From NCBI RefSeq assembly GCF_000152825.2, contig NC_014414.1, forward strand, positions 1,116,001-1,180,000: DNA of 64,000 bases, read 5' to 3'. The first letter of the stretch is position 1, and each line of letters opens with the position of its first letter. The translations under genes and the position numbers were made by a program. Source of the DNA: Parvularcula bermudensis HTCC2503 (lineage in GTDB: Bacteria; Pseudomonadota; Alphaproteobacteria; Caulobacterales; Parvularculaceae). Below the pieces are notes generated by a model that worked only from the letters and a program-made list of their open reading frames with translations, searched no databases and was not told where the DNA came from. Below, in pieces: positions 6,592 through 62,232 of the stretch.

Positions 6592-7202
6592 TGTTGCGCC
6601 CCCCTTAGGCGTGTGTGCAGGAGCCCGACAGCGAGCGCGTCGAGTTGCTGGTTTCGGTTTTGAATGAGCTGGTTGAGTACGGCGCGCTCGCGCTGGGCTG
6701 CGCGCCAGAATTCGACAATGACCTGCTGCTCGTGGACCGGCGGAATGGCGAGCGGGAGGTTTTCAAGCGCTTTGCGGCGTATGTTCTGGATGTATGAGCC
6801 AGTGGCCGTGCGCGAGAAATAGTCTTGGGCAGGCTTCTGATTGATCTGCCAAGCAAGAAAGGCGGGCAGCAGCTTCTCTGGGCGTTTCACCTTAATGACG
6901 TAGAACTGCGGAGCGCATACGGCGCGCGCAGGCGGATCGTTGATGGGGTAAGCCAGAGTTCGTGTGCCCCGCGCGGAAAAAATCACATCGTCTCCGCTGA
7001 GCCAGTCGGGCGTGCGCTTCGAGGGCAGCTCGACCGTCGGGACGTGTGCCCAGTCGATATCCGCATCGAGGCTCACATCCTTGAGCGCCAAGAAGTGCAC
7101 GTCGCCCGCCTTCAGGGCCTCGGCTGAGCCGCGCAGCGGGTAGCCCGCCGAGATTTCAGCGGCGCGTCCAAGGCTCTCGAAAATGATTGCGTCATCCGTC
7201 AT
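6588..7202 (-). CDS. Single-TRD type I specificity protein (half HsdS)
   Basis: A 204-residue protein with one target-recognition domain followed by one conserved helix. The segment NLPLAIPPVHEQQVIVEFW matches the end of an HsdS TRD, and the C-terminal helix runs to residue 204. A full HsdS has two such units. It is the first gene of the hsd operon and overlaps hsdM by 4 nt. Half-size S subunits can dimerise to recognise a palindromic-type bipartite target, so this protein could give the same M and R subunits a second specificity, or it may act alone on DNA. It is not a frameshifted part of the 399-residue hsdS, since that gene is intact downstream. Both M and R are needed for any activity. 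Confidence 0.8.
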   Translation of the reverse strand: MTDDAIIFESLGRAAEISAGYPLRGSAEALKAGDVHFLALKDVSLDADIDWAHVPTVELPSKRTPDWLSGDDVIFSARGTRTLAYPINDPPARAVCAPQFYVIKVKRPEKLLPAFLAWQINQKPAQDYFSRTATGSYIQNIRRKALENLPLAIPPVHEQQVIVEFWRAAQRERAVLNQLIQNRNQQLDALAVGLLHTRLRGAQQ

Positions 7203-7775: not shown

Positions 7776-7800
7776 GAAGATTCTTGCTGGCGCGCCCGTG

Positions 7801-8036
7801 CGGGTCGGGCTCGCGTGAACCGAGCCCGCCTAGGCGGTCTCGGCCATGCGGCTTTGATCCCTCGCGCGTAGGCTTAGGGGCCAGCCCCTCAGCGCACTTC
7901 AGAAAAAATAGATCGGTCTCCCGAGGCTCGGCTGCGCCTGCGCCCGCCGCCGATTTTTTCTTCCGTTTGCACACCCCGTTCTCGGCGAAAGCCAGGGTTG
8001 CATGAGCAACCCATACCCAACGAAAGGGGTGAACAG
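7801..8036 (+). promoter_or_regulatory. Structured leader of ardA, shared with ardC
   Basis: A 236-nt region upstream of ardA with several potential hairpins, including GGGCTC...GAGCCC, GCC-ta-GGC (in 7826-7835) and GGGTTGC-ATGA-GCAACCC (7995-8012). Three blocks align with the leader of ardC 50 kb away: 7801-7870, 7923-7947 and 7992-8036. The last hairpin ends 24 nt before the start codon in both. The arms differ between copies in a compensatory way, so the structure itself appears conserved. It could be a single-stranded-DNA promoter of the Frpo type or a cis-acting RNA leader. Confidence 0.7.
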
Positions 8037-8555
8037 ATGAAACACGAGGAGTCCGAAATCAGAATCTATGTCGCGTGCCTTGCCGCGTACAACAACGGCA
8101 TCCTGCATGGGCGTTGGGTCGATGCGACATTGGGGGCAGATCATATCCGCGAGCGCATCGCCGAAATGCTTGCCTCCTCACCAATTCCTGATGCTGAGGA
8201 ATATGCCATTCACGACTACGAAGGCTTCGAGGGGGCGAGGATTGAAGAATACTCCGGCGTTGATCACGTGGCTGAAATCGCCGCCTTCATCGATGAGCAT
8301 GGAGAAATAGCAGGCAAGCTGATGGAGTACTTCTGCGACCTTGAAGACGCGCGGGAGGCGATCGAAGATCGCTATTGCGGCTCATACATTTCGCTTGCCG
8401 ACTATGCGCAGGAGATCACTGAGCAGACCATGGAAGTTCCACAGAGTCTGCAATTCTACATCGACTATGAAGCGATGGGTCGCGACCTCGAAATCAACGA
8501 CGTGTTGGCTATCGAAACGGGCTTTGAAGTAGTCCATATCTTCTGGAGGGCATGA
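8037..8555 (+). CDS. ardA: Antirestriction protein ArdA
   Basis: A 172-residue acidic protein that mimics B-form DNA and blocks type I restriction enzymes, protecting incoming plasmid DNA. The start at 8037 follows AAAGGGG. The sequence shows the ArdA pattern: IRIYVACLAAYNNG near residue 8, EEYAIHDYEGFEG near 55, a run of acidic helices, and FIDYEAMGRDLE-type residues close to the C-terminus (here YIDYEAMGRDLE). The net charge is strongly negative, as expected of a DNA mimic. It is expressed away from the hsd operon and converges on the relaxase gene, the usual plasmid leading-region setting. Its targets would include the type I enzyme encoded just upstream. Confidence 0.93.
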   Translation: MKHEESEIRIYVACLAAYNNGILHGRWVDATLGADHIRERIAEMLASSPIPDAEEYAIHDYEGFEGARIEEYSGVDHVAEIAAFIDEHGEIAGKLMEYFCDLEDAREAIEDRYCGSYISLADYAQEITEQTMEVPQSLQFYIDYEAMGRDLEINDVLAIETGFEVVHIFWRA

Positions 8556-9014: not shown

Positions 9015-10316
9015 TTAGAGATCAAGCGACCGGCCCTCGCGACGGGCGCGCGACCTCTGTAGTTGCTCGCGTTTTTCCGCGAGTTCCTCGCGCCGCGCTT
9101 CGTTCAGGTCCTTCTGAGGCGATTGCTGGCGAATATCGGTACGCAGTTCGCGCATGACCTCGGTTTGACGTTCACGTTCGACAGTTCGCCTCTGATCGAG
9201 CGCCTTGCGCTCATCGAGGTGGCGGAAAATCAGAGCGTCTTTCTCGTGACGATCTCGCAGCAGGGCGTCGTATGCCTCAGCGCGATTTTGTTCGGCTACG
9301 CGTTTACGTTCACCTGTGATCCGATCAAACAGGCCTCGCAGGCCTTTGCTGAAGCGTTCTTGACGCTGAGTATTCTCCATTGCCGCTCGAGCCTGTTGCT
9401 GCTCCTCGAGAAATCTTCTCTCGGCGCGCTGCGCAGCGATAAGTGAGCGCTTCTCGGCAGCAAGGCGAAGGCGTTCGGCCTCCGATCGCGCATCCTGCTC
9501 CCGCTTCAACTCGTTGAGGCGACGGTTCACTTCATTGGCGTGTTCGGCATGGCGTTCCGTAACGCTGGGCAGCGTATCTGGCTCGCCCAGGCGGGCGCGA
9601 ACATCTCGCGCTTTAACGCCGACCCACTTGGAAACCGCATAGGCTTCGCCATCGCGATTGACCCCGACGAAGCCGCGTCGATCGCCCTTGGCGAGTTTGA
9701 AGCCTCTCGTCTCCAAAGCGCTGGCGAAGGCCTGCCGCGAATCCGAGATCGCCCAACTATCCTGAAACGCGGACTTGATGGCGGCCACATCGCGTCCCGC
9801 GCGTTTGGCCTGTTGCCATTCTTCCAGCGTGAAATTCTTCGGATCGCGCTCATGCGTTTCGGCCAGCCCTCGCGGCATTTGCCAGCCATGCTCAAGGAAT
9901 AGCTCGCGGGAAACCGCGTTGAGCTTGCGATGGTCGAACGAAAGCTGGACGGCTTTCATCCGCTGCGCATCGATACGCGACCAGACCGCATGGGCATGGC
10001 GTCGGCCTTCCTTCTCGTGGAAGACGATCGCTCGCGGTTGGCCGCTCAGTCCAAGACGCTCTTCGGCCATGTTGATCGCGGCCTCGAAGTCCCGCGTCGA
10101 AACATGTTCGGAAGGCGGGGGATTGAGGGATAGCGAGTAGAGAAACTTCGCGCAGCGCGTTCCTCGGCTTTGCGCGTACGCTTCGTTGAGCGCGCCCACG
10201 AGGTTTTCGGAAGCGAACCCGCGCAGCTCGTGTAGCTCAACGTGGTCGTTCTCGTCTTTCATCAGATGTAACGCCAGATCGCGCGCGCCGCCGCGTTGAC
10301 TGCCTTTCAGGATCAT
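9015..10316 (-). CDS. Relaxase / mobilization nuclease, copy 1
   Basis: A 433-residue DNA relaxase that nicks and pilots the transfer strand at oriT. It begins MILKGSQRGGARDLALHLM, the signature start of this relaxase group, and carries the metal-binding histidines in GRRHAHAVWSRID (H107 and H109). The region after about residue 250 is a long charged coiled coil. It overlaps mobC by 4 nt and is preceded by a putative oriT at 10820-10861. A second relaxase with the same N-terminal layout lies at 60296-61723; the two differ clearly in sequence and in their C-terminal regions, so they are not a recent duplication. Confidence 0.88.
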   Translation of the reverse strand: MILKGSQRGGARDLALHLMKDENDHVELHELRGFASENLVGALNEAYAQSRGTRCAKFLYSLSLNPPPSEHVSTRDFEAAINMAEERLGLSGQPRAIVFHEKEGRRHAHAVWSRIDAQRMKAVQLSFDHRKLNAVSRELFLEHGWQMPRGLAETHERDPKNFTLEEWQQAKRAGRDVAAIKSAFQDSWAISDSRQAFASALETRGFKLAKGDRRGFVGVNRDGEAYAVSKWVGVKARDVRARLGEPDTLPSVTERHAEHANEVNRRLNELKREQDARSEAERLRLAAEKRSLIAAQRAERRFLEEQQQARAAMENTQRQERFSKGLRGLFDRITGERKRVAEQNRAEAYDALLRDRHEKDALIFRHLDERKALDQRRTVERERQTEVMRELRTDIRQQSPQKDLNEARREELAEKREQLQRSRARREGRSLDL

Positions 10317-10753
10317 GAGCCGTCCTCCGGCTTCACGCCCAGAGCAGCGACCAGATCGCGGCGCATTTCCTGAACGGCTTCGCAGGCCTCCTTCAACTCG
10401 CGCTCAACCTCGGGGCTGAGTGGAAGCGTCCCCGTATTGGCAGCCTTCGCGAGCTGATTGAGATTTGAGGCAAGACGGGATTGGCCGAGCCCGCCGAGCA
10501 TATGGCTGAGCACAGCAAGCTCCGCAGAGGGCTGCCGTCGCCGCTTGGTCGAGCGCCGCGATCTCGGCATATCGTCATCAAAGAGCTTGAGGCGAATGTA
10601 GGCAGCTAGAGAAAGCGCTCCAGCGGCTCGATCGAGCCTTGAGCGTTCCTCATCGGTAAAGCGGATGGAAAAAGGCGGTGAAGCCTTCGGTCGGCTGTTT
10701 CTGTAGCCGTGGGAGGCCGTGTTGAAGGTCTGCACGTTCGTGGAGCTGGTCAT
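10313..10753 (-). CDS. mobC: MobC-like relaxosome accessory protein, copy 1
   Basis: A 146-residue oriT-binding accessory protein of the relaxosome. The N-terminal part (PPFSIRFTDEERSRLDRAAG) is a ribbon-helix-helix-like module. The central SRLASNLNQLAKAANTGTLP is the conserved MobC motif (R..NLNQLA..AN.G), and the C-terminus is helical. It overlaps the relaxase gene by 4 nt, so nicking and accessory functions are translated together. The paralogue at 61720-62103 has the same motif. It would bind the inverted repeat upstream and help melt oriT. Confidence 0.85.
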   Translation of the reverse strand: MTSSTNVQTFNTASHGYRNSRPKASPPFSIRFTDEERSRLDRAAGALSLAAYIRLKLFDDDMPRSRRSTKRRRQPSAELAVLSHMLGGLGQSRLASNLNQLAKAANTGTLPLSPEVERELKEACEAVQEMRRDLVAALGVKPEDGS

Positions 10754-10819
10754 AGGCTCAGCTCCTCAAAATCCGGAATTTCGTGCTTTAGCTGGTGCTC
10801 CCAGTCCTCTAGCGCTTCA

Positions 10820-10861
10820 AAGAGAGAGTTTAAACTTTCTCTCTCGGGGCGCGCCATTTTC
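10820..10861 (-). other. Putative oriT upstream of mobC copy 1
   Basis: A palindromic stretch centred on GTTTAAAC (10828-10835), flanked by AGAGAGA and CTTTCTCTCT, lies 13 bp before GCGCGCCATTTTC (10849-10861). The same architecture, with the same 34-nt span from palindrome to ATTTTC, is found upstream of the second mobC at 62199-62232. An inverted repeat next to a GYGCGCC core resembles MOBQ-type nic regions. Confidence 0.55.
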
Positions 10862-12948: not shown

Positions 12949-13958
12949 CGCTAGTTGGCGATTCTTTGCTGCGTGGAAGGATACCGGTGCGTGATGTGAC
13001 AAACTCCGATGTCGTAAGAAATGCTCCGCTCGTACCCGAGACGTGCAAAAGCCTAACGATACGGGACCTGCAAACCATTCTCCTGGTATCCCAAGCCGGT
13101 AGCATTCGCAGAGCGAGTGCAAGCATGGGAGTTGGTCAGCCAGCGGTGACGAGACGAATTCAGAGATTGGAAGACGCTCTCGGCGTATCAATTTTTGAAA
13201 GGAGCCAAACTGGCGTAAGGTTAACAACGGCAGGTTGGGCCTTAAGCGCGCAAGCGCGGCGACTGGTCGGGGATTTTGGTTTGGCTGTTGAGGCAGCACG
13301 TGCGGCTGGCGAAGGGCAAAGTGGTCATTTGCAACTTGGCCTGATCGCTTCGCTGTCACAGGGCACTCTGCGAGACACTATCTCGAAGTTTATCGATCTT
13401 CATCCCTGTGTCGATTTGACTTTTCTTGAGGCAGATAGAGGAGAACTGATGACGCTCCTAAGTCATCGGGCATTGGATGTCGTATTTGCGTCAGGTGGAA
13501 TGGACTTGGCCGGTGGGGATGCTCTGCTGCTCACTCACGAGCAGATTTATCTTGCTGTTGCACGAGACCACCCACTAGCAGGAAAGACATTGACGCGCTG
13601 GACAGACATTGAAGACGCTACCTTCGTTGTGAGTGCGAATGAACCGGGACCAGAGATTTCCGATTATGTTCGTAGAAGAGTAAGCGATCTTGGTCGGCAG
13701 GTAGTCATACGTCGGCATGGGCTTGATCGCGAAGGAATTATGAACCTTGTCGGACTAGGGGTCGGCATGAGCCTAGTGTGTAACCATTGGCGTGGGATCA
13801 GTTATCCAAACGTAGCGTTTGTACCGCTGGTGTGGGACGGAGTTGGTGAATCGATTCCATTCAGTCTGGTTTGGCGCCCCGAGAACGACAACCCTGCGCT
13901 TAGGCGGTTTCTGAGTTTGGCTCGGAACGAGGCGAAGCGGAACGGTGTTCTTTCCTGA
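12945..13958 (+). CDS. LysR-family transcriptional regulator, 3' end at a recombination junction
   Basis: A LysR-type regulator of up to 337 residues. The helix-turn-helix begins around residue 38 (LTIRDLQTILLVSQAGSIRRAS), so the true start may be later than the GTG at 12945, for example a GTG at 12987. The effector-binding domain follows (GHLQLGLIASLSQG). The last 59 nt overlap the convergent DUF2274 gene. The final residues (NEAKRNGVLS) read antisense to the unusual tail of DUF2274, which suggests that a recombination event near 13.95 kb fused the two loci. It follows the EamA gene with a 4-nt overlap, so it may be part of that transcription unit. Confidence 0.85.
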   Translation: MTLVGDSLLRGRIPVRDVTNSDVVRNAPLVPETCKSLTIRDLQTILLVSQAGSIRRASASMGVGQPAVTRRIQRLEDALGVSIFERSQTGVRLTTAGWALSAQARRLVGDFGLAVEAARAAGEGQSGHLQLGLIASLSQGTLRDTISKFIDLHPCVDLTFLEADRGELMTLLSHRALDVVFASGGMDLAGGDALLLTHEQIYLAVARDHPLAGKTLTRWTDIEDATFVVSANEPGPEISDYVRRRVSDLGRQVVIRRHGLDREGIMNLVGLGVGMSLVCNHWRGISYPNVAFVPLVWDGVGESIPFSLVWRPENDNPALRRFLSLARNEAKRNGVLS

Positions 13959-14157
13959 GCTTTGCAAATCCCCTGTCCGTGGCCATAAAGCGCGCCAGCA
14001 TGGGCGCGATGAGCTTTGCAGGTTCATTCTTCTGTCCGGCCTCGCGCGCCAGCACATCCGCATAGGCGACAAGATCGCGATGGACATTGGCGGGCAGCTC
14101 GATGTTCAGTTTAACCGGTGTATCGTCGGGAATGGCGCTCAATTTCAGCTTGGTCAT
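13900..14157 (-). CDS. DUF2274 protein of the trb conjugation operon
   Basis: An 85-residue protein of the DUF2274 family, which nearly always follows trbI in alphaproteobacterial trb-type conjugation operons. The hallmark start is MTKLKLSAIPDDTPVKLN, then ELPANVHRDLVAYADVLARE and FMATDRGFAKLRK. Family members usually end soon after the DRGFA motif; here about 18 extra residues run into the LysR gene, in line with a junction. It lies 3 nt after the trbI fragment. Its role in conjugation is unknown. With most of the trb operon gone it is probably non-functional for transfer. Confidence 0.85.
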   Translation of the reverse strand: MTKLKLSAIPDDTPVKLNIELPANVHRDLVAYADVLAREAGQKNEPAKLIAPMLARFMATDRGFAKLRKEHRSASPRSEPNSETA

Positions 14158-16751: not shown

Positions 16752-16772
16752 GTCAGTTCTCCGCGACGGGCT

Positions 16773-16810
16773 GGCCGAAAGCCTCTCTCTCGACCTCCAA
16801 ACCCGTCACG
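16773..16810. repeat. 38-bp leader repeat, copy 1 (upstream of parB-like gene)
   Basis: Starts GGCCGAAAGCCTCTCTC and ends CAAACCCGTCACG. It matches 37 of 38 positions with 18097-18134. Both copies lie about 20 nt upstream of a gene start in the same orientation, so it is probably a shared regulatory or translation-control site. Confidence 0.75.
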
Positions 16811-16876
16811 AAAAACACGGCCCGCCTCTTCCTCTTGAGGAAGCGACGGACCGGAGAGGTGGAGCGCTGGCCGCAG

Positions 16877-18073: not shown

Positions 18074-18096
18074 GGGTCAATCTCCGTGGGCGGGCC

Positions 18097-18134
18097 GGCC
18101 GAGAGCCTCTCTCTCGACCTCCAAACCCGTCACG
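18097..18134. repeat. 38-bp leader repeat, copy 2 (upstream of DUF932 gene)
   Basis: Starts GGCCGAGAGCCTCTCTC and ends CAAACCCGTCACG. It is the second copy of the 16773-16810 repeat with one mismatch and sits at a similar distance from the DUF932 start at 18073. Confidence 0.75.
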
Positions 18135-18484
18135 GCGAAAGCCGCCGAACTCTTACTCTCTGGGGGCGCCCACGGCGTCTCCCCGCAGAAGGGGTAGGCC
18201 GAGACCTGGGCTCGGACGCAGGGGAAGGCTTTCCCCAGGCAGACTTCCAACCAGCGGTCAACGAGATGCCAATTAGCGGAACATTGACTCCGAATCAGCC
18301 GAAGCGGGGCTTCCGCTCCGGCGGCAGCCCGGCCTGGAGGGCGACGTCGTCCCTTCTCCTGGCGCCCTGGTCCAAAGGCCGATGGTTAACTGGGAGGCTG
18401 CCCTGATCTACATCGCGTTAATGATACAAAACCTCACGCTATGGGCTCCAAAGTGTGGGGATACCTATCAGCTGCCCAGGCGCT
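18135..18484. other. Non-coding stretch between DUF932 and AbiEi
   Basis: About 350 bp without a convincing gene. It has short GC-rich dyads (for example GGGGAAGGCTTTCCCC at 18221-18236) and is likely the upstream control region of the DUF932/ParB unit. Confidence 0.4.
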
Positions 18485-57923: not shown

Positions 57924-57949
57924 GCTGTTCTGAATTGGACGCATCCTGA

Positions 57950-58256
57950 CGGATCGGGCTCTCGTGAACCAAGCCAGCAAGCTGTCTCGGCCATTCGGCT
58001 TCGATCCCTTGCGCATCATCTGACAGCCCTCGCGGGCTGACTTCTTCCTTTTCGTTTCGAGGGCCTGCGGCCCCGTCCTCCGTCAAGACCAAGCCCTTCG
58101 CTTTGGCTTCGGGCGAAAGCCATGGCCCGTGGCTCGGCTGCGCCTGCGCCCGCACCTCTTCCATGGCTTTCGGTCTGGACGGCCGTCCCCCCGCTCATCG
58201 GCGCGGGCCTAGTCCGGTTGCATGCGCAACCGACTACCCAAGAAAGGGGGACACAG
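57950..58256 (+). promoter_or_regulatory. Structured leader of ardC, shared with ardA
   Basis: The copy of the ardA leader (7801-8036). Conserved blocks are 57950-58017, 58129-58153 and 58212-58256. Hairpins include CAGCCC-tcgc-GGGCTG (58024-58039), GGGCC-tgc-GGCCC (58061-58073) and CGGTTGC-ATGC-GCAACCG (58215-58232). The last ends 24 nt before the ATG, as in ardA. In two stems the arm bases differ from the ardA copy but keep pairing. Confidence 0.7.
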
Positions 58257-59156
58257 ATGAAAAGCGACATTTATGAAAGGGTTACCAACAAGATCATTGC
58301 CGACCTTGAGCAAGGCGAGCTGACATGGCTGAAGCCGTGGAGCGCAGGCAATATGGAAGGCAAAATCACCAAGCCGCTACGCCATAACGGCGTGCCCTAT
58401 AGCGGCATCAATATCTTGATGCTTTGGGGAGCCAGCATCGAGGCGGGCTTTCTGTCTCCGTACTGGATGACCTTCAAACAGGCGAAAGAACTAGGCGCGC
58501 ATGTTCGCAAAGGCGAGCGCGGCAATCTGGTCGTCTATGCGAACACGATCACCAAGACCGAGGAACAGGACGACGGCAGCGAAGAGGAACGCAAAATCCC
58601 CTTCATGAAGGGATACAGCGTTTTCAATGTCGAGCAGATCGAGGGCTTGCCCGAGCACTACTACACCAAGCCGAAAGCGATCATCGACCCCGCGCGCCGC
58701 ATTCTGCATGCGGAGGAATTCTTTACAAGCACGGGCGCAGACATCCGCCACGGCGGCAACTCAGCCCACTACAGCGGCGGCAGTGACCATGTGCAAATGC
58801 CGTACTTCGAGACCTTCAGGAGTCCCGAAGCCTACTATGCAACCTTGGCGCATGAGCTGACCCACTGGACCAAGCATCCCAAGCGCCTTGACCGCGGATT
58901 TGGCCGCAAGCGTTGGGGCGATGAAGGCTATGCCCGCGAAGAGCTTGTGGCCGAACTTGGTGCAGCATTTCTATGCGCTGACCTTGAACTCGCGCCCGAA
59001 CCGCGCGCCGATCATGCGGCGTATATCCAGAGCTGGCTTAAGGTCCTGCAAAACGACAAGCGCGCGATCTTCAGCGCTGCCGCCCATGCCCAGCGTGCCG
59101 CCGATTTCCTGCATGGGCTTCAGCCTGTCATCGAAGAAGTAAGCAACGTCGCGTGA
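58257..59156 (+). CDS. ardC: Antirestriction protein ArdC (ssDNA-binding plus zinc peptidase-like)
   Basis: 299 residues from the ATG at 58257, after AAAGGGGG. The N-terminal ArdC-N/DUF1738 single-stranded-DNA-binding domain (about 1-130; IYERVTNKIIADLEQGELTW) is followed by a metallopeptidase-like domain with HELTH at 199-203 and the third ligand region EELVAELG (228-235). ArdC protects transferred DNA from restriction in the recipient. The gene has the same leader as ardA and also converges on a relaxase module. The hairpin at 59173-59196 ends its transcript. Confidence 0.92.
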   Translation: MKSDIYERVTNKIIADLEQGELTWLKPWSAGNMEGKITKPLRHNGVPYSGINILMLWGASIEAGFLSPYWMTFKQAKELGAHVRKGERGNLVVYANTITKTEEQDDGSEEERKIPFMKGYSVFNVEQIEGLPEHYYTKPKAIIDPARRILHAEEFFTSTGADIRHGGNSAHYSGGSDHVQMPYFETFRSPEAYYATLAHELTHWTKHPKRLDRGFGRKRWGDEGYAREELVAELGAAFLCADLELAPEPRADHAAYIQSWLKVLQNDKRAIFSAAAHAQRAADFLHGLQPVIEEVSNVA

Positions 59157-59172
59157 CAATCAGGCAAAATTT

Positions 59173-59196
59173 GCGGCTGGCCTGAAGGCCAGCCGC
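59173..59196. terminator. Bidirectional terminator hairpin after ardC
   Basis: A perfect 10-bp stem GCGGCTGGCC-TGAA-GGCCAGCCGC. On the minus strand it is followed by AAATTTT and so can end the leftward transcript from 59386; on the plus strand it closes the ardC transcript, with no T-run. Confidence 0.65.
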
Positions 59197-59206
59197 GTTG
59201 ATGGCC

Positions 59207-59386
59207 TCATAGACCTGGCGGGCGGACCGCCAGTTCGGCCTCGATATTGTGCAGCGATGCAAGAGCATTGCTGCGTTCAATCGATCCGCGAGGAGCGGAA
59301 GCAAAGGCGTTGAAAGCCTCGCGTAAGAGGGCATGCAGTTCGGCTGTGCTGCGCGATGCTGCATCGAAGCGTGTGATGAGTCTCAT
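59207..59386 (-). CDS. 59-residue plasmid-type small protein
   Basis: The ATG at 59386 has a perfect AGGAGGTGACG Shine-Dalgarno region. It is a helical, mixed-charge protein (SRSTAELHALLREAFNAFAS, then RGSIERSNALASLHNIEAE). No motif is recognised. It is placed between ardC and the relaxase-linked small genes. Small genes of this kind are frequent in mobilization regions. Confidence 0.6.
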   Translation of the reverse strand: MRLITRFDAASRSTAELHALLREAFNAFASAPRGSIERSNALASLHNIEAELAVRPPGL

Positions 59387-59756
59387 CGTCACCTCCTGTT
59401 GATTGTCAGGAGGCCCCGAACCGTTCAGGGCCTTTCGGCCCTCGCACACATCATCCATGGCCCAGTGAAGGCGCTGATGGGTCGGGGTAACGCACTCGAA
59501 ATCTACTGGAAGGTGTCGCTGAAAAACGCGTGAACAGGCATTCGGTGTCGGCAGTTGGCGCAGCATGAATGGACCTTTGCCCGCGCATGGCTTGCAGCAA
59601 TTCGCCTTTCCCCTGACCGAACGCGGATCGCGCATCAATATCCTGCCCGCACCAGTTCGGCGAAGGCCTCACCCGTGTTGGACATGACGCGGCGATCCTT
59701 TGCCTTCGGTCTCATCGGGGGCGTTAGCAAGCCAACCCGAACAAAGGAGATCAATC
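59387..59756. other. 370-bp region with decayed coding-like frame
   Basis: No intact gene. One plus-strand frame reads coding-like pieces on both sides of a TGA (ALEIYWKVSLKNA; then HEWTFARAWLAAIRLSP, which resembles the tail of an ECF sigma factor). It could be a remnant gene. The start of the next gene at 59757 has its own Shine-Dalgarno (AAAGGAG). Confidence 0.3.
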
Positions 59757-60005
59757 ATGGCACGCAACAACACCCAAACCGCGCAAGAGCGCACACGCGA
59801 GTTCCGCGCACCGGAGTATCTGGCGTGGCACGTCACCCAGAAAGGCGACAAATCCTTCTGGAACAAAGTCGGCGCAGCCTGGATGCACAAGGACGCCAAA
59901 GGCTACACGCTTCAGCTCGAATCCCTGCCTGTCGGCGGTCGCATCGTCTTGCGAGAGCCGCTGGAAGACACGGCTTCACCCGCAAACGACGCGGGGCGCT
60001 CATGA
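59757..60005 (+). CDS. 82-residue plasmid-type protein
   Basis: The ATG at 59757 follows AAAGGAGATCAATC. The sequence (LAWHVTQKGDKSFWNKVGAA, then WMHKDAKGYTLQLESLPVGG) is typical of small conjugative-element proteins with a WNKVGAAW motif. It overlaps the following gene by 4 nt. The function is unknown, possibly single-stranded-DNA-related. Confidence 0.65.
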   Translation: MARNNTQTAQERTREFRAPEYLAWHVTQKGDKSFWNKVGAAWMHKDAKGYTLQLESLPVGGRIVLREPLEDTASPANDAGRS

Positions 60006-60289
60006 GCGCCCCCGTCACCAGTCAGATCGACTGGCGCGGTGTCGCGATAAGCATCACCTATCACAAGCGTCGTTGGAACTCGAACTTCGATCACATCGAG
60101 GTTCAAGTGATCGGTAGCGGAGAGATACCCATCACCGAGACTGGCTATCGGTCGCTCTTTGTGCAGACGTTATATGTTGCAGAATTCGGCGGACCTCAAG
60201 CATACGTGCACGCGTGGCTTGAGCACGAAGCGCAGACTCCGCAATGGAAGAAGCGCGAAGAAGCCGCGCGTCAGCTTTCATTGTTCTAG
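60002..60289 (+). CDS. 95-residue protein co-translated with the previous gene
   Basis: Starts at the ATG overlapping the previous stop (ATGA). It is a beta-rich protein (GVAISITYHKRRWNSNFDHIE) with helix-rich C-terminus (EHEAQTPQWKKREEAARQL). No family is recognised. It converges on the relaxase gene 6 nt away. Confidence 0.6.
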   Translation: MSAPVTSQIDWRGVAISITYHKRRWNSNFDHIEVQVIGSGEIPITETGYRSLFVQTLYVAEFGGPQAYVHAWLEHEAQTPQWKKREEAARQLSLF

Positions 60290-60295
60290 CGATTT

Positions 60296-61723
60296 CTATC
60301 GGTCGAGATCAGGACCGTCATAGGACGGTCCTTCTCTTTTTTGCTCGCGCAGTTTGCGCAAGCGATCCTGTGCCAACGTAGTGGAACGGGCCGGACGCTC
60401 GGGCTTACGCTCCTTGAGCTTGTCGAAGCGTGGACGCTCGGGCTGCTTTTTCGGTTCGGCTCGCAGCGTATCCAAACGCTCGAAGACTGTCTTCGCCTTC
60501 GGCTCTTCACCACGGCGCATCAGGCGATAGTTGGCAGCATCGTGATGCAGGGTGCGCAAGGCTTGCGCATGTTTGGTGCGCGCAGCATTGATTTCTTTTT
60601 GCAGCTCACCGCGCTCGCGCAGTTGCGCGTTGATCGTCATTTGTCGCTGATCCTGATCGCGGCGCAGCGCCCACATCACTTCAAGCTGGTTCTGTTTTTC
60701 AAGCTGAGCCCGCTTGCCTGTCAGACGATCCCACAGGCCCATCATGCCTTTGCGAAAGCGATCCGCTCTTGTGCGCGCTTCAGCTTCAAACCGCGCCTTC
60801 TGGCCTGCGTCCAGCTTGGCGCGTTCCACGGCATGCGCCTTCGCCATCTCCACGCGGCGCGCATTCAGTTGATCGAGTTCGGCACGGGCGGACGCGCGCG
60901 CTTCCTCTACATGCGATTTGATGCGCGGAAGTATATCTTCAGCAATGCGCTTGCGGGTTTCCTCAACGCTGTTCAATGCGTCCGGCTTTCCAAGACGAGC
61001 GTGCAGCTCTTTCGCTTTCTTGCCCGTCGCCCGTGAGATCGAAATGACTTCACCTTCGAAGGTGACAGCCACATGACCGCGCCGATCCCCGCGCGCCAGA
61101 TAGAAGCCGCGTTCTTCGAGAGCGTGCGCGAAAGTGCGAGCTGAGTCCGAAGTCGCCCAGGCTTCCTGAATCAGTTCTTTCAATTCGCCCGCATGACGTC
61201 CGATCCGCTTGGCCTGCTGCCATTCATCAAGCGAGAAGTTGCGGGGGTCGCGGTCCTTTGGGTCGATCAGGCCGCGCGGCATCTGCCAGCCGTTCTCAAG
61301 ATAGAGTTGGCGCGAGACCTCCCGCAGCTTGTTCTTGTAGAACGACATTGGCTTGGCGGTCATCGTCTCAGGATCGATCCGGCTCCAGACGGCATGACAG
61401 TGCCGCCGTCCTTCCTTCTCGTGTAAAACGACAACGCGTGGCTGGCCCGTCAAACCGTTTTTCTCTTCGATGGCTTCCAGCGCTTTTTCGAAGGTTCGAA
61501 CGTGGACACGCTCGTTCTCGGGCGGGTTCAAAGACACCGAAAACATGAACTGTCGGCACTTTGTGCCCTTTGCGATGGCTTCGGCTTCGCGGAGCGCGCC
61601 GACGACATCATCGGACATGAAGCCGCGAATATCGTGCAGCTCGACATGCTCGTTTTCTTCGGTCTTGAGGAGATGCAGCCCGAGCTGCTTTGCGCCGCTT
61701 CGTTGTGATCCTTTCAGGATCAT
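60296..61723 (-). CDS. Relaxase / mobilization nuclease, copy 2
   Basis: 475 residues from the ATG at 61723 (MILKGSQRSGAKQLGLHLL). The metal-binding histidines are in GRRHCHAVWSRID (H108 and H110). It shares the domain plan of copy 1 (9015-10316) with clear sequence divergence: a relaxase domain followed by a charged coiled coil and a Lys/Arg/Pro-rich tail. It overlaps mobC by 4 nt and would nick the putative oriT at 62190-62232. It is the likely mobilization enzyme of the serine-recombinase element. Confidence 0.88.
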   Translation of the reverse strand: MILKGSQRSGAKQLGLHLLKTEENEHVELHDIRGFMSDDVVGALREAEAIAKGTKCRQFMFSVSLNPPENERVHVRTFEKALEAIEEKNGLTGQPRVVVLHEKEGRRHCHAVWSRIDPETMTAKPMSFYKNKLREVSRQLYLENGWQMPRGLIDPKDRDPRNFSLDEWQQAKRIGRHAGELKELIQEAWATSDSARTFAHALEERGFYLARGDRRGHVAVTFEGEVISISRATGKKAKELHARLGKPDALNSVEETRKRIAEDILPRIKSHVEEARASARAELDQLNARRVEMAKAHAVERAKLDAGQKARFEAEARTRADRFRKGMMGLWDRLTGKRAQLEKQNQLEVMWALRRDQDQRQMTINAQLRERGELQKEINAARTKHAQALRTLHHDAANYRLMRRGEEPKAKTVFERLDTLRAEPKKQPERPRFDKLKERKPERPARSTTLAQDRLRKLREQKREGPSYDGPDLDR

Positions 61724-62103
61724 GACGGCTCCACATCGGTACGATGGCCGAGCGCGCGAAGTAGCTCCCGCCGCATCAGCGCCACGTCGACGCATGCGCG
61801 CCGAATATCGCGTTCCGTATCGGGGAGAACAGGGAGCGTGCCGAGATTGGCCATCTTGGCGAGCTGGTTCAGATTATTGGCGATCCTCGATTGCCCTAGC
61901 ATGGCGAGAACCTGCGCCAGCTTCTGTTCATCCTTGATCGGGCGACGGGACCGCGCCCGTGCGCGTTTCTTCTTGAGCCCCTGACCGTCAAAGACCTTGC
62001 GGCGGATATACGCTCCAAGCGGCATGTCGCCAGCGAGTTCTTCAAGTCTAGCGCGCTCTTCAAAAGTCAGTCTGAGGGAGAAGGGAGGTGTCTTTGCCGT
62101 CAT
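61720..62103 (-). CDS. mobC: MobC-like relaxosome accessory protein, copy 2
   Basis: 127 residues from the ATG at 62103, with GGGGTGG upstream (a GTG at 62118 is possible). The ribbon-helix-helix-like start (PPFSLRLTFEERARLEELAG) is followed by the MobC motif SRIANNLNQLAKMANLGTLP. It overlaps the relaxase gene by 4 nt. It would bind the palindrome at 62199-62206. Confidence 0.85.
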   Translation of the reverse strand: MTAKTPPFSLRLTFEERARLEELAGDMPLGAYIRRKVFDGQGLKKKRARARSRRPIKDEQKLAQVLAMLGQSRIANNLNQLAKMANLGTLPVLPDTERDIRRACVDVALMRRELLRALGHRTDVEPS

Positions 62104-62114
62104 CGCGCCACCCC

Positions 62115-62141
62115 GCAAATGTCCCGTTCGGGGGCATTTGC
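62115..62141. other. Hairpin in the mobC leader
   Basis: GCAAATG (62115-62121) pairs with CATTTGC (62135-62141), with inner CCC/GGG pairs. It lies just before the mobC start and may regulate its translation. Confidence 0.4.
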
Positions 62142-62189
62142 AGGGATTTGGATTGCGCTAAGCACCTGATTCCATTGAGCGAGAATATC

Positions 62190-62232
62190 GAACAAGGTGT
62201 TCGAACTTTCTCCTCCTAGGTGCGCCATTTTC
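62190..62232 (-). other. Putative oriT upstream of mobC copy 2
   Basis: The palindrome GTTCGAAC (62199-62206) and GAACA-agg-TGTTC (62190-62202) precede GGTGCGCCATTTTC (ending 62232). The 34-nt span from palindrome to core end equals that at 10828-10861, and the palindrome differs by paired changes (GTTTAAAC versus GTTCGAAC). Confidence 0.55.

Follow-up and report, generated by a model that had tools for sequence, protein, structure and literature searches.

A cloverleaf-like leader common to ardA and ardC of Parvularcula bermudensis is homologous to part of the F-plasmid Frpo regions and may serve as a single-strand promoter

Why do two different antirestriction genes of Parvularcula bermudensis HTCC2503 carry the same structured leader? 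The genes lie in a stretch of 64,000 nucleotides (the window) that forms part of a 2.9-Mb single-contig genome, and a first-pass annotation had named them ardA and ardC, which their Pfam matches bear out: ardA (8037-8555, + strand) matches ArdA at E 4.7e-47, and ardC (58257-59156, + strand) matches ArdcN at E 1.3e-43 and MPTase-PolyVal at E 2.9e-54. The two leaders, 7789-8036 before ardA (leader A) and 57938-58256 before ardC (leader C), are homologous, with pairing kept where the bases differ. A BLAST search of the genome with 7795-8038 as query recovers leader C in two pieces, at E 6.9e-13 (84% identity) and E 1.2e-6 (71%), together with a third match at E 3.5e-10. The alignment falls, as had been proposed, into a 5' block, a 28-nt block (7920-7947 and 58126-58153, + strand; direct repeat D5, 96% identical) and a 3' block. 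The annotation had also placed the leaders correctly, although not their 5' edges, as the 5' module begins about 12 nt earlier, at 7789 and 57938 respectively.

The 5' part of the leader, about 80 nt long, has a branched, cloverleaf-like fold that occurs across Pseudomonadota. Within the window it spans 7789-7869 in leader A (+ strand; covariance model R1, 74.5 bits, E 7.4e-16; a BLAST homologue of 57950-58016) and 57938-58016 in leader C (+ strand; R1, 82.9 bits, E 4.8e-18), both copies being members of the 18-sequence seed. In that seed 94.1% of the cells are paired, and double changes affect 29 cells compared with 8.7 in shuffles. The same pattern is seen in 113 distinct copies, whose alignment was fitted to the covariance model and is thereby biased towards the structure: 91.0% of cells are paired against 77.0% in shuffles, 286 cells are changed on both sides against 93.1, and the covariation score is 0.333 against 0.117, none of these three values being reached in 500 shuffles. 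Controls in which the pairing partners were slid give at most 49 double-change cells. Less striking is how many pairs show at least one double change (15 of 22 compared with 12.4 in shuffles, and matched in 32 of the 500). Columns 39/147, for example, read GC in 56 copies, CG in 50 and UA in three, and columns 70/105 read CG in 43, AU in 31, GC in 22 and UA in six. The best-supported helix of the family includes the exchange of GCC-ta-GGC for AGC-aa-GCT on which the original reading had drawn, and which is real; in leader A it lies in hairpin P4 (CCGAG-CCCGCC-TA-GGCGG-TCTCGG, 7820-7843, + strand), where seven of eight pairs are changed on both sides somewhere among the 113 copies. The fold of this module is under selection, as judged by covariation.

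Relatives of the 5' module are common in the order to which the organism belongs (covariance-model matches in 90 of 299 genomes) and are also found in samples of the class (18 of 289) and of the phylum (31 of 398). We had started from two copies in this genome, but there are five R1 matches, the ardA and ardC leaders among them. The match at 2902418 precedes a second ardC (ArdcN), which is reached across the contig origin, that at 667439 (- strand) precedes an ArdA homologue and a ParB homologue, and that at 2867118 precedes a 133-aa ORF with no Pfam match. Eighty stretches, picked from the best-scoring covariance-model matches listed, were fetched with flanks of about 7 kb on the upstream and 13 kb on the downstream side of the copy, some of them ending at contig ends. 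One of them, L136, holds four cloverleaf copies within 6.5 kb (at 6977, 9154, 9645 and 13402), the first of which precedes an ORF with a TIR domain.

In the window each ard gene faces a convergent relaxase gene downstream, beyond which lies a mobC-like gene: beside ardA a relaxase at 9015-10316 (- strand; Pfam Relaxase, E 5.5e-16) and a mobC-like gene at 10313-10753 (- strand; NikA-like at E 2.7e-4, and MobC at E 2.4e-4, which is below the cut-off of that family), and beside ardC a relaxase at 60296-61795 (- strand; E 6.5e-15) and a mobC-like ORF at 61720-62118 (- strand), recognised by its phmmer similarity (E <=1e-4) to the mobC-like gene beside ardA. For 106 of 115 copies we obtained a downstream gene by a crude pick, the longest ORF starting 20-700 nt downstream, and the commonest families were ArdC (22) and ArdA (17), followed by SSB (3), ParB-type domains (3) and DNA methylase (2). 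The covariance-model search thus turned up further copies before antirestriction genes, as the first reading had anticipated, and before other genes of leading regions, although many copies precede genes other than ard, which counts against a single-strand promoter. The orientation is fixed. A phmmer search with a small set of query proteins places an Ard homologue within 6.5 kb downstream on the same strand for 48 of the 115 copies, upstream on the same strand for 12 and on the opposite strand for none, and a MobC homologue within the same distance downstream of 30 (29 on the opposite strand, one on the same) and upstream of none; these counts are not independent, because copies in one stretch have genes in common and the stretches are themselves related. 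Not every ardC has the leader: ArdcN gave 38 match rows in 22 of 60 genomes, with a listed cloverleaf about 300 nt or less upstream in at least five of the 38, and that most ArdC loci have no leader also counts against a single-strand promoter. The window holds a second common leader, a 69-nt repeat (83% identical) at 16767-16835 and 18091-18159, directly upstream of a ParB-like gene and a DUF932 gene, both on the - strand, and there is no cloverleaf match there.

The leader ends in a short hairpin, GGGTTGC-ATGA-GCAACCC at 7995-8012 and CGGTTGC-ATGC-GCAACCG at 58215-58232 (both + strand), each of which stops 24 nt before the ATG of its gene (at 8037 and 58257), and the sequences and the spacing are just as first described. 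The 16-nt core occurs, with up to two mismatches, only at these two sites in the window (0.15 expected from shuffles), and with up to one mismatch its two occurrences in the whole genome are again the two leaders. Among 150 genomes of the order the pattern GGTTGCATGNGCAACC occurs 14 times in 11 genomes compared with once for the backward control pattern, and 12 of the 14 GGTTGC-ATGN-GCAACC sites lie 128-222 nt downstream of a cloverleaf among the matches listed. Allowing two mismatches and 400 nt, 27 of the 115 copies carry the hairpin, and none of 14 cloverleaf copies from eight enterobacterial plasmid records does. In the alignment of 20 of these 27 sequences (seven exact 24-mer duplicates were dropped) 94.0% of the cells are paired and nine are double changes against an expectation of 2.1, spread over four of seven pairs. 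The element is nearly invariant in sequence, loop included. Its length is too small for it to be the promoter stem; it may instead act as an operator or belong to the 5' UTR.

Between cloverleaf and 3' hairpin the leaders differ by type. Whole-leader alignments were made for 23 of the 27 (13 of the ardA type and ten of the ardC type; L107, L108, L110 and L162 were left out). In 11 of the 13 ardA-type leaders an AT-rich stem is present, which in the window is GAAAAAATAGATCGG...CCGCCGATTTTTTC (7902-7960, + strand). Its cells are 79.9% paired against 69.6%, with 13 double changes against 4.6 in seven of 12 pairs, although shifting the partners by -1 still yields 0.185 against 0.234, an effect of the A/T runs. 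This stem is present in the DNA fold of the complementary strand of leader A, and the complementary-strand arm carries CTATTTT in 11 of the 13 leaders, with no -35 element recognised by eye; it is a candidate promoter stem on that strand. The ardC-type leaders have GC-rich stems in this part, and no AT-rich stem was seen in the ten aligned. In leader C the middle hairpin is CGAAAGCCATGG...CCATGGCTTTCG (58114-58172, + strand), which from its sequence and folds is GC-rich, holds the 28-nt block in its apical part and lacks an AT-rich stem. The leader is a composite of cloverleaf, type-specific hairpins and 3' hairpin.

An ordinary double-stranded promoter upstream would have spoken against the single-strand reading. 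A consensus scan found no sigma-70-like promoter on the + strand of either leader; however, it also scores zero on the F Frpo regions and is for that reason uninformative. No strong terminator was found in either leader, the one candidate being a weak terminator-like match at 58024-58039. On the - strand, 7775-7746 resembles a sigma-70 promoter (10 of 12) that would serve the divergent gene to the left of leader A.

Searches of 72,556 plasmid records led from these leaders to the F plasmid. Leader C matches 18 records by BLAST, including Rahnella (E 3e-8), E. coli (4e-6) and Raoultella (4e-6), and leader A matches three; the named relatives of the leaders sit on plasmids of Tritonibacter, Bradyrhizobium, Azospirillum and Peteryoungia. 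With the Raoultella leader as query there are 4,114 records (7,793 places), mostly from Escherichia and Klebsiella, and in 28 of 40 evenly sampled rows the match covers one stretch of about 87 nt, which is the cloverleaf. To avoid circularity, a further covariance model (R2) was built from 18 copies of the organism's own class with no sequence from F or from enterobacteria. On the F plasmid (NC_002483; stretch L014) it finds the module at 8094 (E 1.2e-15), before ssb, and at 13482-13483 (E 1.4e-12 at 13483), before the gene at 14033, which we take to be ygeA. Over eight enterobacterial stretches R2 gives 14 matches, of which the weakest (L016) has E 0.041. Couturier et al. place Frpo2 before ssbF and Frpo1 before ygeA, describe both as needed for early expression in recipients and give a distance between them of about 5 kb (PMC9849209); the two F copies of the module are 5.4 kb apart. 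The F positions are the places described as Frpo2 and Frpo1, and the leaders in the window are, by sequence comparison, homologous to the F Frpo regions in the 5' module.

The likeness is limited to that module. Both in F and in the window a homologous cloverleaf-like module stands before a leading-region gene and points to the transfer genes, whereas the F regions (a 328-bp region in the description of Frpo in PMC7690428) contain about 250 nt more of hairpins and a long AT-rich stem with some 16 perfect pairs, and in the window leaders the AT-rich stem is shorter (ardA) or not seen at all (ardC), while these leaders have in addition the 28-nt block and the 3' hairpin, the latter not found in the enterobacterial copies. 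At the sensitivity of the R2 search the rest of the F region shows no homology to the window leaders. Thus the proposal that the leaders are Frpo/ssi-like stands for the 5' module and the layout. An F-type AT-rich stem is only partly matched in leader A, and that none was seen in leader C weighs against a single-strand promoter. Transcription at Frpo starts at the AT-rich stem. The F module is found about 250 nt before that stem, on the side away from the gene, and would not be transcribed if transcription does start there.

Other leading-region elements are more distant. The ColIb-P9 (IncI1) elements that we compared, presumably the published ssi sites, stand like the F regions before ssb and other leading genes. 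With F they have in common a block of 68-73 nt (86-94%) and an AT-rich stem region (76-81%), the long AT-rich stem of the two plasmids not being found in the window leaders, although the cloverleaf is only weakly recognisable in them (R2, E 0.044 and 0.34; no match in the other stretch). Support for these elements as ssi sites is given in PMC3817090. Two published surveys relied on BLAST: for leading regions, Samuel et al. took as queries five known Frpo/ssi sequences together with further candidates (PMC11541004), and a 2026 survey of PLSDB plasmids took the five known and 13 putative ones (PMC12826799). A literature search outside subscription journals and supplements found no paper in which 'Frpo' and 'Alphaproteobacteria' occur together, and for 'Frpo' with 'covariation' the sole match was an unrelated neuroscience abstract book. 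The CUP elements of the IncN plasmid pKM101 are likewise a repeated leader before ardA and other leading-region genes, and are described as repressor-controlled duplex promoters.

Mobilization modules related to that of ardC, about 90-95% alike over about 57940-62230, are present in L105, L107, L110, L112, L159 and L162. The start of related modules often coincides with the 5' edge of the leader (57940-57956 for L011, L105, L110, L148, L152 and L159, and also for L162), and in the six the homology stops abruptly at 62225-62232, which is probably the right end of the element. An oriT was not found in these mobilization modules. A motif before both mobC genes (an inverted repeat with GNGCGCCAT) resembles a nick site of the RSF1010 type, but was rejected, as its - strand reads as the first codons of a small ORF overlapping mobC. 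The homology of the six related modules also stops at this place, and the motif is probably coding and beside the element end. The small ORF (10757-10858, - strand) has a similar start before the second mobC (pattern MAxxxxES.N.LF). Relaxase genes are described as typically on the lagging side (PMC11541004), so that with the convergent relaxase-ard layout the ard genes could be late, which we count against a single-strand promoter.

Which molecule folds is a separate matter. Among 2,103 leader cells, from related rows and with helix P2 (two pairs) and pair 115/140 (not standard in 59 of 113 copies) left out, there are 48 G.T and 40 A.C mispairs, the counts with pair 115/140 included being 49 and 90; 28 tRNAs of the same genome (336 cells), kept for having at least ten of 12 standard pairs by a filter that itself lowers A.C, give 23 and none. 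As an A.C mispair here reads as G.T on the opposite strand, these counts weigh slightly against a constraint on RNA alone and agree with folding as DNA. Folded as DNA, the complementary strand has z -2.19 for leader A and -2.92 for leader C, compared with -5.16 for F, and the RNA folds have z -1.49 and -2.37; the fold energies of the leaders are thus only modestly low, which also counts against the single-strand reading.

The explanation that we favour, and consider moderately probable, is that these leaders are divergent members of the class that includes the F Frpo regions, and serve as non-coding, single-strand DNA promoters for the ard genes of mobilizable islands. It builds on the homology to the F Frpo regions, on the covariation (which, as the first-pass annotation expected, holds in the further copies), on the DNA context and on the fixed orientation. 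In this model the island would enter the recipient as single-stranded DNA, and the template strand of ardA or ardC would fold into the cloverleaf and the downstream hairpins, so that the folded molecule would be the entering DNA strand itself and the fold would act as DNA. RNA polymerase would recognise the fold and, by analogy with F, start at a double-stranded stem within it, such that antirestriction protein could be made before a second strand exists. Conversion to duplex would flatten the fold and turn the promoter off, making the structure transient. The 3' hairpin, 24 nt from the start codon, would then be either a part of the 5' UTR or an operator that works once the DNA is double-stranded.

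An alternative that we regard as unlikely is a structured mRNA leader behind an ordinary promoter, in which the RNA fold, chiefly the 3' hairpin, controls translation or termination. Covariation and a place before the start codon would suit RNA, as would the z value of the leader C transcript, but the window holds no Rfam family at gathering score, A.C is as common as G.T, unlike in the tRNAs (a control biased in that direction), and neither a + strand sigma-70-like promoter nor a strong terminator is seen apart from the weak match within leader C; in addition, the homologous F module sits in regions that act as single-strand promoters (PMC9849209). The one sub-threshold Rfam hit, RT-15 (RF03018) at 7809-7864, with E 0.0086 and 0.017 and 20.3 bits against a gathering score of 82, is a chance match that recurs neither in 18 related loci nor in 100 genomes, where the controls were silent too. 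Distinctly unlikely, in our estimate, is a double-stranded regulatory region in which the palindrome GGTTGC-ATGN-GCAACC is the operator of an element-encoded repressor and the rest is architecture. The near-invariance of the 3' element and its loop suits a protein site, and symmetric changes would be expected there as well, but this leaves unexplained both the branched covarying 5' module and its presence in F, where the palindrome is lacking from all 14 copies of the eight enterobacterial records. That the leaders are recombination or cassette junctions, folded single-stranded sites exchanging leader-plus-gene modules in the manner of integron attC, we hold to be most improbable: modules starting at the leader edge, several copies in stretches such as L136 and reported recombination between Frpo repeats (PMC3817090) all point that way, yet homologous recombination between conserved leaders explains the edges equally, and the Pfam tally of downstream ORFs shows no recombinase gene regularly adjacent.

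If the single-strand promoter reading holds, its reach may extend well beyond this genome. Frpo1 and Frpo2 have been studied experimentally as single-strand promoters (PMC9849209, PMC11541004), and experimental evidence for such promoters comes from a few enterobacterial plasmids. Divergent leaders can escape BLAST surveys such as the two described above. We suggest, tentatively and as a possibility rather than an expectation, that the cloverleaf is a previously uncharacterised DNA-level module of single-strand promoters, ranging from F plasmids to the chromosomal islands of another class and joined to various downstream stems. With its help even small mobilizable islands would be able to make antirestriction proteins from incoming single-stranded DNA in hosts that are no relatives of Escherichia coli. 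Protective genes may, by analogy with F, be switched on during entry as single-stranded DNA in islands far removed from Escherichia coli as well. Should the leaders fire on entering DNA, they would be markers of early-expressed anti-defence genes in many chromosomal islands, and would allow the generality of zygotic expression from single-stranded DNA to be tested directly.
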